Positions 6,114 through 34,055 of a stretch of 39,992 nucleotides of DNA are shown here, in pieces. A program made the position numbers and the translations under genes. The notes under the pieces were generated by a model that worked only from the letters and a program-made list of their open reading frames with translations, did not search any database and was not told where the DNA came from. Every line of letters begins with the position of its first letter. Position 1 is the stretch's first letter. Origin of the DNA: a virus; the IMG/VR virus record IMGVR_UViG_3300049783_000585, positions 1 through 39,992 of that record, one strand, 5' to 3'.

Positions 6114-6857
6114 TTAATTGCTTAGCGCTGGCATGATATAGCTGTACACACCTAGGCCACTGTCTACATCAATCTGACACACACCTTGGTCACTAAATCG
6201 AACCACTATAGTGCCGCCTAACTTGATGATTGATAGGAATTGTGATAGAGGCCAACTCCAAGTAGTGGACAACGTGCCGTCGATATTTTCTGCAAACACG
6301 CGCCGCCCTGTTGCACCGCCTTCAGTGCTACCTACCGTGAACACCAAATTACTGTCTTCTGTCTTCACGCTAAAAGCCGGATCAACGCCAGAATAAATGC
6401 CTGCAACTTCTGACAATTGCATAATCCGCTTAGCCACAGGCGCAACTTCTACGTCCCATTTTGCACCTTTAAAGGTAGCAACTTTCATAGCTTGATCGAT
6501 AACACTACGGCTCATGAAGCGATATTGATCCTTCCCACCTTCTGCGTCCTTGAATACAAGGTTTACTGGCAGTTCTACATCATCTTTTACCTGCCGAATT
6601 ACATCAATGGTGGCATTGGTATCTTGGTAGTTTGATAGGCGCATCATCGAGGTGAGTAACCCCAGATTGCCCATGCCAAATTCACCAACGAATTCGGGCA
6701 CTGCTTCATGCATTTTACCAGTAAGAATTACTGTCTTATTTGCATCCATTGCAGCAATGGTCGTGTCTTCTCCGGTTCCAATAATTTTTACGTTATCAAT
6801 GATGCCGAGTCCGCTAGTGTGTTTGACGATGTCCATTAGGACGGATTTAATATCCAT
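6114..6857 (-). CDS. 45: Sliding clamp (gp45-like)
   Basis: A 247-aa DNA polymerase processivity clamp; T4 gp45 is 228 aa and trimeric. In T4-like phages the clamp also couples replication to late transcription by contacting the late sigma and co-activator. The sequence shows the expected all-through mix of short strands and helices (for example FVGEFGMGNLGLLTSMM) and a C-terminal strand region (SGLGVYSYIMPAL). It has an AAGGAAATATT site. It is the gene immediately after DNA polymerase, separated by an AT-rich 92-nt leader, as expected for a replication module. Confidence 0.9.
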   Translation of the reverse strand: MDIKSVLMDIVKHTSGLGIIDNVKIIGTGEDTTIAAMDANKTVILTGKMHEAVPEFVGEFGMGNLGLLTSMMRLSNYQDTNATIDVIRQVKDDVELPVNLVFKDAEGGKDQYRFMSRSVIDQAMKVATFKGAKWDVEVAPVAKRIMQLSEVAGIYSGVDPAFSVKTEDSNLVFTVGSTEGGATGRRVFAENIDGTLSTTWSWPLSQFLSIIKLGGTIVVRFSDQGVCQIDVDSGLGVYSYIMPALSN

Positions 6858-11707: not shown

Positions 11708-12501
11708 GTGCGGCGTAGGTATCCGCTGTGGACCCAACCATCTTCATCAATCTGTGCCCATTCGCCATTGCGGTCGATGACTTCTACGCTAGTTCCACGA
11801 TTAATGTTTCTGAGTGTATCAAATTGTGCACCAGGACCTGAACGAACACGAAGTGAGCTAGCGGTGACTTCATATCTTTCACTATCGTCTCCACGATCAG
11901 ATGCAAGATGACGTTTTAGAAGCTGCATTGGGAACGCTGGGCCAGGATCAGTTTTCCAGCCGCGTGTGTCAATTTCTTCATGTGACACAATATCAATGAT
12001 TGAATACTTGTCACATAACGCTTCTGTCAAGCTGTCAACCGCTGCCATTTGCTCTGGGGTATAACGTGGCCAAGCAAATGTGCCACTGCCTGCGCGAGGG
12101 CTTGCAGCAAACACAAGACCATGTGGGAAGTCTGCCTCGGTACGTGTATTACCGTAAGCGTCCTGAAATTGTCCATTACCTAGTTGTCGTAGCCAACCGA
12201 TGTTAACAATTTCAATTCCGATTGAATAATTGTTAAGACCTTTGTATCCCATATGACGGGATGGTCCGGCGTGCCATGCTTTGACATTAAATGGAACGTG
12301 CTGTGTAATTGTACCGTCTATGTCGATGGTTACATGTGCGCTAACGCCACTGCCTTTACGTGTCAGTGTGTTGATTGCTGAACTTGCAGTATAGCCTGCG
12401 GTGTAATGCTGTACGATGAACAGCGGGGTAATCTCTCCGCTTTTGTTTGGTGATTCAACGTATGCTGCACCATCAATACGATGATTTTTAATATTGGTCA
12501 T
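11704..12501 (-). CDS. Endolysin: N-acetylmuramoyl-L-alanine amidase with SH3b domain
   Basis: A 265-aa amidase_2 (PGRP/T7-lysozyme fold) enzyme that cuts the bond between muramic acid and the peptide stem. Zinc ligands fit H32 (VQHYTAG), H174 (VSHEEID) and D185 (WKTDPG); AWHAG (75-79) is the conserved substrate-side motif. Residues about 208-263 form a bacterial SH3 wall-binding domain (SSLRVRSGPGAQFDTL ... GWVHSGYL). C-terminal SH3b domains are less usual in endolysins of Gram-negative hosts. No signal peptide, so release needs the holin. A late promoter and an RBS hairpin lie just upstream (12511-12533). Confidence 0.93.
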   Translation of the reverse strand: MTNIKNHRIDGAAYVESPNKSGEITPLFIVQHYTAGYTASSAINTLTRKGSGVSAHVTIDIDGTITQHVPFNVKAWHAGPSRHMGYKGLNNYSIGIEIVNIGWLRQLGNGQFQDAYGNTRTEADFPHGLVFAASPRAGSGTFAWPRYTPEQMAAVDSLTEALCDKYSIIDIVSHEEIDTRGWKTDPGPAFPMQLLKRHLASDRGDDSERYEVTASSLRVRSGPGAQFDTLRNINRGTSVEVIDRNGEWAQIDEDGWVHSGYLRRT

Positions 12502-12510
12502 GTTGGGTGT

Positions 12511-12533
12511 CTCCTATTATAGGAGTATTTATT
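12511..12533 (-). promoter_or_regulatory. Late promoter AATAAATA with hairpin over the endolysin RBS
   Basis: Minus strand: AATAAATA (12526-12533), then CTCCTAT-A-ATAGGAG (12511-12525), then 9 nt to the ATG at 12501. The AGGAG is the ribosome-binding site and is paired with CTCCT in any RNA coming from upstream. With T4 late spacing the start falls at about 12520, so late RNA lacks CTCCT and the site is free. Confidence 0.7.
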
Positions 12534-13190
12534 CTATTTGAAGAAGAAGCCCATGCGCGTTATTTCCAAGTGCCCATCAGCATCCTCGAAGTCAATGTGA
12601 TAATCATATCCTAGGCGTGCAAAAATCTCACAATCTGCATCAGACATGTCACTCCAGCGTGGTATAATCTCTGTAGCTTTTGGTGGAAAGTCCACACCGG
12701 ATCGTAAATGTATTTCAATTATTTTATCATGTATGAATTCAATATTAATTCTAGGAACATTAACAAGTTCATTTAACCATTCAGGCAACGCAAACTGTGG
12801 CGGAACAATTTTCTTCCAAGCAGTGAAACGATAGAGATGGTCGCTGGTTCTGTATCCATTAGCTGCAAACACAGGTGTCAACGTCGGGTACGCGCCAGAC
12901 GTCCATACATAATCAATTGTTGTATGTAATCCGTAAAAATATTCGCACCAAAAATAACCAGGTGGTACAGATGAACAGTCATTCTTTTCAAGTTGCATAC
13001 GGCAAGCACTGACGCCCATGCCACTCAAATTCATTATAGGTCGTACAACATAGTCGCCATTATGTGGAACACAAACGCCAGCAGGTCCTGTATTGTATCC
13101 TAGTCTTTCACTTAGTGCTAGCTTATTGTAAACCCAGTGTTGATCAGGATACTTTATATACGCATCACGATCAAATTCACAGTTATACAA
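12534..13190 (-). CDS. Hypothetical protein, possibly ATP-grasp-like
   Basis: A 218-aa soluble protein rich in aromatic residues and Cys. The N-terminal part (HWVYNKLALSERLGYNTGPAGVCVP then YVVRPIMNLSGMGVSA) resembles the lysine-and-glycine nucleotide-binding entry of ATP-grasp enzymes, and similar proteins occur in marine phages, but catalytic acidic residues are not clear. It overlaps the nucleotidyltransferase gene at 13183-13788 by 8 nt, which suggests a shared pathway. No firm function; ligase activity is a guess. Confidence 0.75.
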   Translation of the reverse strand: MYNCEFDRDAYIKYPDQHWVYNKLALSERLGYNTGPAGVCVPHNGDYVVRPIMNLSGMGVSACRMQLEKNDCSSVPPGYFWCEYFYGLHTTIDYVWTSGAYPTLTPVFAANGYRTSDHLYRFTAWKKIVPPQFALPEWLNELVNVPRINIEFIHDKIIEIHLRSGVDFPPKATEIIPRWSDMSDADCEIFARLGYDYHIDFEDADGHLEITRMGFFFK

Positions 13191-13788
13191 TTTTATCTCG
13201 CATTAGTGTGTGAATCTCGATACTGTACTTACCGTATAAGTCTGCAATCATGTCTGTCTGTGTGCTATGATTGGCTGCAACAAACTGGTTCCGAATTTCG
13301 GTTGCGCTATGGACAGGCGAGCCTGCCACGTCAAATTCAAACGTGGGCAAAACCACCACATAGGCATGCTTGTTTACTGGAAGCAAATCATGCTTGTTAT
13401 CGGTATATGATTGGAAAAAACTTGCACTCCCATCTTTTTTGGGCTGGAATTTAAAACGTGGGTTATCTATCATATCTTTTTGACTGATTGCAAAAATAAC
13501 CACGGTTGATGTTGGATCAAACGTATCGACAATTTCAGAAGCAATATATGGGCTTTTGACACAAATAATACTGTCATCAGGGATACCAGCCTGTAACATC
13601 ATTGTCTTCTTTTCATTAAAATTAAATGGCGAACGGAATGCCTCTACTACGTTGCTCGTAGCTATAAAGGCTGAATCAAATTTGGTGTGTAACCATTCCC
13701 ATGCCCGCATATGACCGATGTGAGGTGGTTGAAATCTACCACTCATAATTCCAACAGTTTTATACGTTAGATGGTCTTTGTGGGGCAT
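13183..13788 (-). CDS. Nucleotidyltransferase (cytidylyltransferase / NMN adenylyltransferase-like)
   Basis: A 201-aa HxGH nucleotidyltransferase. GRFQPPHIGH (17-26) is the phosphate-binding motif, and SATEIRNQF near residue 165 takes the place of the C-terminal ISSTxIR motif. Such enzymes join NTP to a phosphorylated head group, for example NMN to NAD or choline/glycerol phosphate to CDP derivatives. The substrate cannot be told from sequence. T4-like marine phages often carry this type of gene. It is coupled to its neighbours (1-nt overlap upstream, 8-nt overlap downstream). Confidence 0.83.
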   Translation of the reverse strand: MPHKDHLTYKTVGIMSGRFQPPHIGHMRAWEWLHTKFDSAFIATSNVVEAFRSPFNFNEKKTMMLQAGIPDDSIICVKSPYIASEIVDTFDPTSTVVIFAISQKDMIDNPRFKFQPKKDGSASFFQSYTDNKHDLLPVNKHAYVVVLPTFEFDVAGSPVHSATEIRNQFVAANHSTQTDMIADLYGKYSIEIHTLMRDKIV

Positions 13789-14111
13789 TACTGGACTCCT
13801 ACGAGCTTTGCGTGTAAACGGGCTTGAAACTTCTGTAACAATTCGACTAGTTTGGTATCTTCATTATCATATGCTTGATCGATTAAACGGGGCATAGTCT
13901 GATATAGTATATACCCCTGTGTTTCAATTGTCAACGGTACTTTCATCATTTTTTCGTCAGATTCTGCACGTTGCATCTGATCAACTAACATGATGTGTTC
14001 TTCTTGGCTTTCAGAATCTACCGAATCCACCTCAGATGCCCATAGCACGTTGAAAATAGCTTCGGGCATCTTGGTGTTTCGTACTTTTTCTTTAATCTCA
14101 ATCAGTTGCAT
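13788..14111 (-). CDS. Hypothetical helical acidic protein
   Basis: A 107-aa protein, helical and acidic, with no membrane segment (QLIEIKEKVRNTKMPEAIFN at the N-terminus). It is joined by TAATG to the 59-aa gene upstream and by a 1-nt overlap to the nucleotidyltransferase downstream. Position at the end of the late gene run suggests a virion-associated or assembly role, but no family is recognised. Confidence 0.75.
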   Translation of the reverse strand: MQLIEIKEKVRNTKMPEAIFNVLWASEVDSVDSESQEEHIMLVDQMQRAESDEKMMKVPLTIETQGYILYQTMPRLIDQAYDNEDTKLVELLQKFQARLHAKLVGVQ

Positions 14112-15224: not shown

Positions 15225-15381
15225 TTTTATTCTCCATTGGGGCGCGTTTGATCATTGTCGACTTCTTTTTCTTCGGCTTAACTGCATAAATGCTAGCTGC
15301 TGGATCGCCACCGCCTAACCCCATTGCAACACCTGCAACGGCTCCGGATGTAGTTTCTGATATGATGTCTGTTATACGCAT
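15217..15381 (-). CDS. Small protein (54 aa) of the MRI-DII type
   Basis: A 54-aa protein starting MRITDIISETTSG and continuing with a Gly/Ala-rich stretch (VAGVAMGLGGGDP) and a lysine cluster (KPKKKKS). Short proteins with an MRIxDIIxE start and a Gly-rich centre are common between late genes of marine T4-like phages in my experience. It overlaps the next start by 8 nt (ATGACTAA). A TAATAAATAG late-like motif lies directly upstream. The ribosome-binding site is weak. Confidence 0.75.
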   Translation of the reverse strand: MRITDIISETTSGAVAGVAMGLGGGDPAASIYAVKPKKKKSTMIKRAPMENKND

Positions 15382-15392
15382 AATACTATTTA

Positions 15393-15620
15393 TTACTCTA
15401 AGCGATTTGCACGACGAGTAGCTTCCCGACTGACTTTTCGTTCCATCTTCTTAGATGAGGTTACAATCTTATTTTTCTTTGCACGAAGTGCTCTGCCTTC
15501 GTCTACGGTAAGTTCTTCTTTCGCCCCATAGCCAAGGTAATACATGGCGTCATCCTTGGCTACTGCGTTCATAGGACCGTCAGTGGCGGTTATGTCCTCT
15601 GTTGTTAATCGTTTTTTCAT
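15393..15620 (-). CDS. Small basic protein (75 aa)
   Basis: The start is ATG 15620, because AAAAAAGGAG lies 6 nt upstream of it; the longer reading to 15647 is not needed. The gene begins inside the 3' end of the large multidomain gene (41-nt overlap). The protein is basic toward its C-terminus (KKNKIVTSSKKMERKVSREA) with no membrane segment. Function unknown; like the 59- and 54-aa genes nearby it may be a small scaffold or DNA-contacting protein. Confidence 0.75.
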   Translation of the reverse strand: MKKRLTTEDITATDGPMNAVAKDDAMYYLGYGAKEELTVDEGRALRAKKNKIVTSSKKMERKVSREATRRANRLE

Positions 15621-19125: not shown

Positions 19126-19761
19126 TTAAGCGCCCTGAATGTCAATTCCACCGGAAGATGACACACTGATGTCGCTTACGGTACCACTTGGTCCAGTATA
19201 TGTGGTATAACCAGTTGAGTCAATGCCAACAAGTTCAAACGTTGTTCCGTCAAGAACGTTAACAACGTATGCACCATCAGTAACTTCGACCATACCAGTC
19301 ACGCCAGTAATAGTAACTGTTTCGCCTGAAGTCATATTAGCTGTTGAGGCCGCTGTAACAACTGCTGGATTAGCTTCTGTAATGCCAGTAATTGCTTCAG
19401 TTGGAGCACCAATAACAGGTGTAATAGTCCATGGTTCTTTAGAAAATGTGTTGTTTGCCAACCCTAGACGCAATGTACGGTTGTAAAGACGTACAACGTT
19501 GTACGCTACACCGTCTGCATCAACACCGTCAAGACGGAATTCACCAGCAGCAAGTGTGCCAGCATCTTTGTCAACAAGTGTCAATACTTCACTCCATGCA
19601 CTAGAAGTGTCTGATACTAGGAATTTATTTGTTGAACGCTGACTAACGATGAACGTATCATCTTGGCCTGCGGTTTCTGCTCCGCCAACGCGGTAATAGT
19701 TTGTTACCTTGATGCTGTCTACTGCATCACCTAGGTATTTTTTGTTAATTGGTCGACCCAT
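19126..19761 (-). CDS. Probable structural protein with E1-FCCH-like domain
   Basis: A 211-aa protein; the ATG at 19761 has AAGGAG at ideal spacing, so the longer frame to 19785 is rejected. Residues about 1-105 are a beta-rich capsid- or tail-like region with frequent Asn, Thr and Gly. Residues about 110-200 match the phage version of the ubiquitin-activating-enzyme FCCH domain (ITGITEANPAVVTA, GETVTITGVTGM, GTTFELVGIDSTGYT), which is widespread in phage fibre and decoration proteins. A late promoter and a structured leader precede it, consistent with strong late expression. Exact virion position unknown. Confidence 0.82.
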   Translation of the reverse strand: MGRPINKKYLGDAVDSIKVTNYYRVGGAETAGQDDTFIVSQRSTNKFLVSDTSSAWSEVLTLVDKDAGTLAAGEFRLDGVDADGVAYNVVRLYNRTLRLGLANNTFSKEPWTITPVIGAPTEAITGITEANPAVVTAASTANMTSGETVTITGVTGMVEVTDGAYVVNVLDGTTFELVGIDSTGYTTYTGPSGTVSDISVSSSGGIDIQGA

Positions 19762-19778
19762 TTTTTTCTCCTTAATGG

Positions 19779-19863
19779 AGTTCAATGCGGGTTCTAGCCG
19801 CTACGGGGTGGTGTTCCCCATAAGTCCTGCTAATACAGGCCCCTTGAACTACCATTATTTATC
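19779..19863 (-). ncRNA. Cloverleaf-like structured 5' leader after a late promoter
   Basis: GATAAATA (19856-19863) predicts a start at about 19850, which is the first base of the closing stem AGTTCAA/TTGAACT (19844-19850 with 19779-19785). Inside are three hairpins: CCTG/CAGG (loop 6), GGGG/CCCC (loop 7) and GCGG/CCGC (loop 7). The AAGGAG of the next gene follows at once and is unpaired. It looks like a 5'-end-sealing leader; it is not a canonical tRNA. Confidence 0.55.
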
Positions 19864-23174: not shown

Positions 23175-23480
23175 TTAGCCTTTAAAATTTGTTGAATCAT
23201 ATGATTGGGGTGAAACATTCGACTGGACGTTTTGTGGGGCAGAAGAGTTGGTCCCAGAATTGACATAAAGTCCGAACCAAGCGGCACCTGCACCAATAAT
23301 TGCACTAGCAAATGCTGCCTGTGCTGGATTAGGCACTGGAAGTCCCATGAACCACATTGCAGTTTCCATGCAAAGCCAGAAATAAAATATAATAAATGCG
23401 CGTGGAAAGATTCTCCATGCGTTGAAATATTGTGGTGCTAACCACAGCCATCCGTTTTTGTTCACATTGTTCTCCGCCAT
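23175..23480 (-). CDS. Probable holin, two membrane helices
   Basis: A 101-aa protein with hydrophobic helices at about 26-46 (FPRAFIIFYFWLCMETAMWF) and 55-73 (AAFASAIIGAGAAWFGLYV), joined by a short Pro-rich turn, and a polar Ser/Asn/Gln C-terminus. The WRIFPR...WFM...GAGAAWFGLYVNS pattern is one I know from small holin-like proteins of marine phages. It has a GGGAG site and a late promoter. Holins time lysis by opening the inner membrane to release the endolysin. Confidence 0.78.
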   Translation of the reverse strand: MAENNVNKNGWLWLAPQYFNAWRIFPRAFIIFYFWLCMETAMWFMGLPVPNPAQAAFASAIIGAGAAWFGLYVNSGTNSSAPQNVQSNVSPQSYDSTNFKG

Positions 23481-23510
23481 GAATTACTCCCTTATTAGTG
23501 CTTACAAGGA

Positions 23511-23518
23511 TATTTATC
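23511..23518 (-). promoter_or_regulatory. Late-promoter motif GATAAATA for the holin
   Basis: Located 31 nt upstream of the holin start and immediately after the terminator of the previous gene, so holin expression depends on this promoter. The predicted leader is short and unstructured with a GGGAG site. Confidence 0.65.
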
Positions 23519-32701: not shown

Positions 32702-33132
32702 GTGATGAGTTTTAGCACATCTGCGTCTAAACCAGCCATCTTTAGCAAAATCATGATTTCGTCCCATTGTTCTTTGATTTCAGGATGTTCGTCAAGCACC
32801 ATACGCAATTGTCCTGTTTGGCTTTGGTATCGAGTTACAATTTGTTGGGTTTGGAGCAGGTCCAACGCGACTTTGTTGGATTGACGTTTGTAATGGTCGT
32901 GTTCGTTTTGCAGGTTTACCATATCGAGGACCTTCTTGGAATTCATACGCAAATCCCACACTACGTCTTCTGCGGATTGTTCAGTCCGATAATATGGAAT
33001 GCGATCCGATGAAAGCGACCCATGGTACGTGTATTCAGTTCGGCGTTCAGTATGACGGGCATCAAGCACAATAATTCCTGCGTCACTAAGCAAACGCGTC
33101 ATGTGGTCGATTTTATCAGAGTAATTTGTCAT
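32698..33132 (-). CDS. Conserved phage hypothetical downstream of the clamp loader
   Basis: A 144-aa helical protein (AEDVVWDLRMNSKKVLDMVN, then a coiled-coil stretch and QWDEIMILLKMAGLDADV). The pattern is familiar from cyanophage-type genomes but unnamed. It follows the clamp loader with a 1-nt overlap, the position of T4 gp62 (the small clamp-loader subunit, 187 aa), but no gp62 similarity is visible, so replacing gp62 is only a possibility. Confidence 0.75.
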   Translation of the reverse strand: MTNYSDKIDHMTRLLSDAGIIVLDARHTERRTEYTYHGSLSSDRIPYYRTEQSAEDVVWDLRMNSKKVLDMVNLQNEHDHYKRQSNKVALDLLQTQQIVTRYQSQTGQLRMVLDEHPEIKEQWDEIMILLKMAGLDADVLKLIT

Positions 33133-34055
33133 TAAATATTCTCCAATTCACACATTGTGGCTGAGAAGTTAATTTCGGGGTCAGCAACCGACACATGTTT
33201 TACCATACCGTCACGAATGATCATGATAGCCTTGTCTTGTTGTTCCGGTGTTGCCCCAAAGAAATCTAAGTTGCGATACAGAAACTTAAACATATCCTCA
33301 AAATCTTCGGGGGTAGCATTCCTACAAATGAGATCACGTGCTGCACGCAATTTCTTATTACGAAATAATGCAACCATTTGCAAGCGCCAATCGCTAGTAG
33401 AACTATCAGCCGCATCGGGTGGCATCAGTTTGCCATTTGTAACATTTTGCTGCACAGCATTGATGGTCTTGCGCAGGTCTGGATAGGTTGCTCGAACATA
33501 TAAGTCGATGGTCTCCAAGTCAATCTCTACGTTTTCGGTAATGAGAATTTCTGCGACACGAGCAGTGAAATCAGACTGGTCTTGATTGCTGATATAGAAT
33601 TCTTGGCTTCTGCTTTTGATCGCAGGAATGATCTTGTGGGCATAGTTACAGGTAAGAATGAAACGTACCACTGAGGAATATTCCTCCATTACACCGCGCA
33701 ACGCTGCCTGACCGTTTGGTGAGATATAGTCGGCCTCGTCTAGCAGGACGATCTTGAAGTCGCCCCACGCCATTGTACTAGAAAATCGTGTCACACGGTC
33801 GCGGATCAAATCCACGCCATTGTCACGGCTTGCGTTGATATACATGAAGTCTGCGTCTTGGATGCCAAGCTCGCTTACCAATACTCTGGCAAGAGTGGTT
33901 TTTCCTGTCCCAGGCCCACCATGGAACAACAGGTGAGGGATACTTTTATCAGCAACCCAGCCTTCAATAATTTTCTTTTGTTGGGGGTCTTTGAAGACAT
34001 ATTCGTCAACTGTGGTTGGGCGATATTGCTCAACCCATAAAGCATGTATGGCCAT
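33132..34055 (-). CDS. 44: Clamp loader ATPase (gp44-like)
   Basis: A 307-aa AAA+ protein (T4 gp44 is 319 aa) that opens and loads the sliding clamp. The N-terminus has the RFC-family YRP motif (EQYRPTTVDEYV). Walker A is GGPGTGKT (46-53), Walker B LLDEAD (104-109), sensor 1 LTCNYAH (134-140). The conserved SRC box is SRS here (148-150), with Cys replaced by Ser while the arginine finger is kept. It starts 3 nt after the gene at 34059-34259 in a replication and chaperone cluster. Confidence 0.94.
   Translation of the reverse strand: MAIHALWVEQYRPTTVDEYVFKDPQQKKIIEGWVADKSIPHLLFHGGPGTGKTTLARVLVSELGIQDADFMYINASRDNGVDLIRDRVTRFSSTMAWGDFKIVLLDEADYISPNGQAALRGVMEEYSSVVRFILTCNYAHKIIPAIKSRSQEFYISNQDQSDFTARVAEILITENVEIDLETIDLYVRATYPDLRKTINAVQQNVTNGKLMPPDAADSSTSDWRLQMVALFRNKKLRAARDLICRNATPEDFEDMFKFLYRNLDFFGATPEQQDKAIMIIRDGMVKHVSVADPEINFSATMCELENI

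Follow-up and report, generated by a model that had tools for sequence, protein, structure and literature searches.

A candidate T4 gene e-type promoter-in-hairpin switch at the endolysin gene of a jumbo-like phage

Organization of the endolysin locus

The window analyzed in this study is the whole 39,992-nucleotide stretch of the viral record IMGVR_UViG_3300049783_000585. On its minus strand, positions 12536-12499 read TAG-AATAAATA-CTCCTAT-A-ATAGGAG-ACACCCAAC-ATG, in which TAG ends the upstream gene and ATG opens the endolysin gene (Table 1). This arrangement, a late promoter box followed directly by a palindrome that includes the AGGAG ribosome-binding site, had been described in a sequence-only reading of the same DNA and was found to be correct to the base. 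The upstream stop codon lies right before the box and 9 bases 5' of the 5' arm of the hairpin, and the genes further upstream (12534-14111) abut or overlap each other. The endolysin matches Amidase_2 (1.4e-26) and also carries SH3_3; with these domains it falls outside the T4 lysozyme family, for which membership was tested, and the claim that the enzyme differs from T4 lysozyme was thus borne out. For comparison, the contigs of seven relatives (G001-G007), whose endolysins are 66-80% identical, were read.

Table 1. Features of the endolysin leader, late transcription genes and predicted leaderless late genes (window coordinates unless a relative is named)
Feature	Position	Strand	Basis or remark
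Late promoter box, T4-type, AATAAATA (-13 to -6)	12526..12533	-	predicted from sequence and comparison with relatives
CTCCT, 5' arm of the local hairpin, between box and predicted start	12521..12525	-	
Palindrome CTCCTAT-A-ATAGGAG	12525-12511	-	
Predicted late start, +1 = A	12520	-	sequence statistics
Ribosome-binding site AGGAG, in the 3' arm	12511..12515	-	stem TAGGAG 12516-12511
Alternative 5' arm TGGGCTTCTTCT, final codons of upstream gene	12542..12553	-	possible partner AGGAGACACCCA (12515-12504)
Endolysin, Amidase_2 + SH3_3, 265 aa	11704..12501	-	start codon 12501-12499
Upstream gene, phrog_3577	12534..13190	-	stop TAG 12536-12534 abuts box
gp44-type clamp loader (phrog_168)	33132..34055	-	
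Probable gp45-like sliding clamp, adjoins polymerase	6114..6857	-	31% identity to Vibrio phage 2.275.O protein of gp45 family
Predicted leaderless late gene, ATAAATA-N5-ATG	15379-15394	-	
Predicted leaderless late genes, ATAAATA-N5-ATG	G002 18598, 56661, 121226, 158437		
Predicted leaderless late genes, ATAAATA-N5-ATG	G003 26844; G004 17850		
Predicted leaderless late genes, ATAAATA-N5-ATG	G007 39216, 40470, 63208, 77868, 92075		

Phage identity and late transcription machinery

The window is a 40-kb fragment whose DNA polymerase is nearest to those of jumbo phages such as Phosso, Atu_ph07, 121Q and RaK2. The T4 gp45 model alone gave no match in the window, and the probable sliding clamp was found only via its Vibrio phage homologue. 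A gp55 gene was not found in this fragment or in G002, which may be incomplete; searches of the longest near relative of the window with T4 or PHROG models were negative for both gp55 and gp45. A gp55-like late sigma factor is encoded by G007 (168 kb; E = 4.5e-91), which shares 46% identity with its counterparts in PA5oct, Phosso and other jumbo phages.

The nearest named endolysins belong to DSS3P8-type siphoviruses of marine alphaproteobacteria (52-58% identity), and the rest of the window is jumbo-phage-like, so that a gene exchange is likely; the shared endolysin may also give a hint at the host. Placing the phage itself with these siphoviruses was rejected, because the polymerase, clamp loader and late sigma factor of the clade point to jumbo phages of the T4 superfamily and because the siphovirus endolysin leaders have no box. 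Two siphoviruses without the box, MAL1 and MD18 (L042, L043), carry an inverted repeat of the GAGGCC...GGCCTC type around the endolysin ribosome site and immediately 5' of the start, complete in MAL1, which might represent another way of control.

Late promoter and predicted transcription start

The 10 copies of ATAAATA in the window are all found on the coding strand. Their number is not enriched (10.4 expected), nor did bare counts of TATAAATA-like octamers exceed shuffles, so the count alone is no evidence; the signal becomes visible only when strand, position and spacing are considered. Boxes are concentrated between genes, and those of the clade are found just 5' of starts. In all eight phages (the window and its seven relatives), a box is present approximately 20-30 bases 5' of the endolysin start, with the form GTAAATA in G003. 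The replacement of the first T of the box by A is a known variant that occurs at nine T4 late promoter sites (PMC2988020). A T4-type late promoter at the endolysin, as proposed from the sequence alone, is therefore a well-supported prediction, based on strand, placement and presence in the relatives. A further late promoter lies upstream of the endolysin at 15394. Elsewhere in the clade, divergent late boxes form large palindromes between oppositely transcribed genes (G007 75565/75600 and G002 67269/67293).

The T4 box occupies positions -13 to -6, its first base being placed at -13 in PMC2988020, so the sixth base past the box is the expected point of initiation. For 17 of the 115 boxes of the window and relatives, exactly five bases separate the box from a following ATG that opens an ORF of 40 codons or more, the other spacings up to ten bases occurring once each or not at all; permuted 7-mers had an ATG at five bases in at most 3 of 238 cases. 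In addition, the +1 base is a purine at 20 of the 21 non-leaderless late promoters of the window and G001-G006 (p = 7e-5). These two regularities make A12520, right after CTCCT, the predicted start, and they lend statistical support to the claim that late transcription begins beyond CTCCT. Located between the box and this position, CTCCT would be missing from the late RNA.

The ATAAATA-N5-ATG units look like leaderless late genes, in which the first transcribed base would be the A of AUG (Table 1). Four such boxes were found in PA5oct, and none in Phosso, Vibrio 2.275.O or RaK2. A gp25-like baseplate gene is among these units in both G002 and G007. The rule of box, five bases and +1 could allow late transcripts, leaderless genes and switches to be predicted in uncultured jumbo-like phages. 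We also detected the Rfam freshwater-2 motif (RF02980) at 19759-19840 of the window (minus strand), as well as in two further contigs (L073, 594-676; L063, 13144-13223). Since it starts about 10 bases after a predicted late start and precedes a tail-protein gene (window, G003, G002), it is probably a 5' leader of late phage mRNA.

Hairpin formation and hiding of the ribosome-binding site

The leader RNA is predicted to fold as CUCCUA-UAA-UAGGAG, a 6-bp stem with a UAA loop and a free energy of -6.4 kcal/mol, which was equalled by 7 of 200 shuffles. A bare palindrome of this kind is not rare, as four perfect 7+1+7 palindromes occur in the window. We examined read-through RNA in four contexts of different lengths, and the predicted pairing probability of AGGAG was at least 0.98 in each of them, the local hairpin being dominant in three and the upstream Met-Gly-Phe-Phe codons taking the lead in one. 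Opening AGGAG would cost 7.1 kcal/mol in read-through RNA versus 1.2 kcal/mol in RNA that begins at A12520. Prediction thus supports the earlier proposal that CTCCT and AGGAG pair in upstream-initiated RNA and that the site is free in late RNA.

When all 1024 5-mers were compared in RNA from the box onward, CTCCT ranked best at hiding AGGAG (weighted P = 0.0016). This advantage diminished (P = 0.067) once the upstream codons were added, since AGGAG can pair with them too. The combination of coding-strand ATAAATA, boxes near starts and an optimal CTCCT exceeds chance.

Endolysin leaders of the relatives

The exact CTCCT/AGGAG pairing, for which the sequence-only reading had suggested a comparison with relatives, is not conserved. 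G001, the closest relative, has no site-hiding hairpin at its endolysin leader, the local stem of G004 contains a mismatch, and in most relatives the site is hidden by other arms, so the exact pairing is specific to the window. In G002, the pairing arm is a non-coding segment 3' of the upstream stop codon, while in G003 and G005 the 3'-terminal codons of the preceding gene serve as the arm. The stem of G006 comprises 12 bp; its 5' arm includes the box, and it covers the ribosome site only in part. The hairpin is strongest in G007, where perfect, non-coding 13-bp arms (AAATTTCTCCTAT/ATAGGAGAAATTT) enclose the box in the loop, as in the leader of T4 gene e. There, the endolysin gene lies directly 3' of a cytidyltransferase-like gene, without the phrog_3577 gene, and about 70 bases lie between the end of this different upstream gene and the endolysin start. 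The earlier reading had left the choice between convergence and ancestry open; the shifted places of the arms suggest repeated independent origin more than ancestry.

Conserved pairing with the upstream codons appeared convincing by eye, yet it did not go beyond a synonymous-codon null: synonymous replacement of these codons did not significantly reduce hiding in any of six phages (combined p = 0.21). The codon arms may therefore have arisen as a side effect, where a conserved Gly-Phe-Phe motif happens to face a purine-rich ribosome site. A covariation analysis based on multiple alignment was discarded, as MAFFT misplaces the boxes and the arms change their location, and no covariation is claimed. 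Independent support comes from G007, from the CTCCT of the window and from the way in which endolysins differ from other late genes.

Endolysins compared with other late genes

We scored every box accompanied by a ribosome site and a start, which gave 48 units in the window and relatives, with the two T4 e promoters serving as a positive control for the hiding score (14.1 and 9.9 kcal/mol). The top four of the 48 non-T4 units were all endolysins, namely those of G007 (12.6 kcal/mol), G004 (6.0 kcal/mol), the window (5.9 kcal/mol) and G005 (5.6 kcal/mol). The fifth-ranked unit, and the best non-endolysin, was a NUMOD3 homing-endonuclease-like gene (G004 18256); homing endonucleases are a gene class known for hairpin control in T4-type phages (PMC2988022). 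In a second measure, the leaders of endolysins showed stronger pairing with the segment lost from late RNA than those of other late genes (p = 0.0013 and 0.0005), and jointly they exceeded shuffles (p = 4e-6), as opposed to other genes (p = 0.26). These values do not come from a fresh test, since the ranking had been seen before this measure was designed, and they refer to a small sample of eight related phages.

Within the window, the site-hiding hairpin that scores next (4.6 kcal/mol), also with a late box, belongs to a small membrane-protein-like gene at 23178-23518 on the minus strand (101 aa, phrog_10198), which is of unknown function and holin-like by eye only.

Proposed switch and alternative explanations

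Computation yielded the box, the pairing, the enrichment of such pairing at endolysins and, in the form of a statistical regularity, the start. Combined with what is known of T4, they suggest the following switch. The endolysin gene would have its own T4-type late promoter, presumably used by a gp55-like sigma factor. Any RNA reading in from upstream would carry CUCCU, fold and hide AGGAG, and the endolysin would be poorly translated from it, to an extent and with a timing that we infer. Late RNA would begin at A12520, after CUCCU, so that the hairpin could not form and translation would be free. With read-through RNA hidden and late RNA free, the lysis enzyme would be made mainly from its own late promoter. 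We regard such a T4 gene e-type promoter-in-hairpin switch as reasonably likely, and as one that probably evolved independently. The sequence-only reading is thus partly supported: its late promoter, start, pairing and different enzyme agree with the predictions, and the exact pairing is not conserved. The gp55-like factor of G007 and the gp45-like clamp and gp44-type loader of the window also count in favor of the switch. Counted against it are this missing conservation, the codon null, a stem that is short compared with those of T4 e and G007, the nearby stop codon and the negative searches for gp55 in the window and G002. The hairpin may also separate the endolysin from polycistronic late RNA rather than from early RNA, given the late promoter further upstream.

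It is also conceivable, albeit distinctly less probable, that the late promoter is real and the hairpin incidental, with a purine-rich site pairing with spacer pyrimidines and Gly-Phe-Phe codons to no regulatory effect. The loss of pairing in G001, codon arms that stay within the synonymous-codon null and the ordinary frequency of 7+1+7 palindromes are all compatible with this explanation. It accounts poorly, however, for the distinctness of endolysins from 40 other late units, for CTCCT being the optimum of 1024 5-mers and for the perfect non-coding arms of G007. Translational coupling, by which ribosomes finishing the upstream gene would open the stem and set a ratio instead of silencing the gene, is a serious rival, since a ribosome that stops at UAG would occupy the 5' arm and could thereby open the hairpin. 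The distance of 9 bases between that arm and a stop codon placed directly before the box, together with the abutting or overlapping genes upstream, agrees with coupling. Nevertheless, we consider it rather improbable, as coupling does not need a promoter inside the hairpin, and in G007 the hairpin is strongest despite a different and more distant upstream gene.

A role of the palindrome as a DNA operator or a transcription terminator, with no action on translation, appears very improbable. The near-perfect DNA palindrome was listed by a scan as terminator-like on the plus strand, but its T tract (TATTTATTCT) is poor, and terminator-like sites are as numerous as expected by chance. An operator would also have to be reconciled with the single copy of the palindrome in the window and with the unrelated sequences by which relatives hide the site, as would be expected of RNA pairing but not of a protein operator. 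This reading was therefore dropped for want of support.

As for the promoter-in-hairpin switch, its arms occupy at least three positions among these phages, lying between the box and the start, on either side of the box, or within it. Tentatively, and with somewhat less than even confidence, we propose that a branch of the RaK2/PA5oct/Phosso-like jumbo lineage has repeatedly re-invented an endolysin promoter-in-hairpin timer, and that the same promoters yield leaderless late mRNAs. If so, the different arm positions would mean that selection on function maintains the lysis clock as its sequence is replaced over time. The T4 answer to premature lysis would then have evolved again, with an unrelated enzyme and in a distant phage group, and a late promoter that cuts off a silencing arm would be a general design rather than a peculiarity of T4.

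Comparison with known systems

The switch logic is known from T4 gene e and from homing endonucleases, and the differences here concern the gene, the lineage of the phage and the place of the arm. In the T4 gene e leader, late promoters lie inside a hairpin that hides the ribosome-binding site (McPheeters et al. 1986, reviewed in PMC3014915), a layout that silences the long e transcripts about 100-fold (PMC3014915). As predicted for the window, the late promoter of gene e is directly upstream, the site is hidden in long RNA, the 5' arm is missing from late RNA, and the product is a lysis enzyme. The enzymes are unrelated (an amidase in the window and a lysozyme in T4), and the 5' arm is located between box and start in the window, whereas in T4 it is upstream of and around the box. 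T4 e also has two boxes instead of one and a stronger stem (-14.9 versus -7.6 kcal/mol).

Hairpin control has also been reported in T4-type phages for the homing endonucleases I-TevI, SegB and MobE as well as for soc and 49 (PMC2988022, PMC3014915). The genes differ from that of the window and the logic is the same: a long RNA hides the site, which is left free in RNA from a late promoter located within or next to the hairpin. For the jumbo phage CBB, excerpts of the published account (PMC5259590) describe an ATAAATA late motif, as in the window, located 5' of structural genes, together with a gp55-like sigma factor; neither gp33 nor gp45 was detected in that phage, and the start position, leaderless genes and a hairpin switch are not described in these excerpts.

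Strong site-hiding late-promoter hairpins were also observed at other genes of cultured jumbo phages. They include PA5oct 134990 (L155), a gene that is endonuclease-like by eye (477 aa, no PHROG match), RaK2 139443 (phrog_8113) and Phosso 73418, a gene that is subtilisin-like by eye (1287 aa) and whose arm directly follows the box, as in the window.
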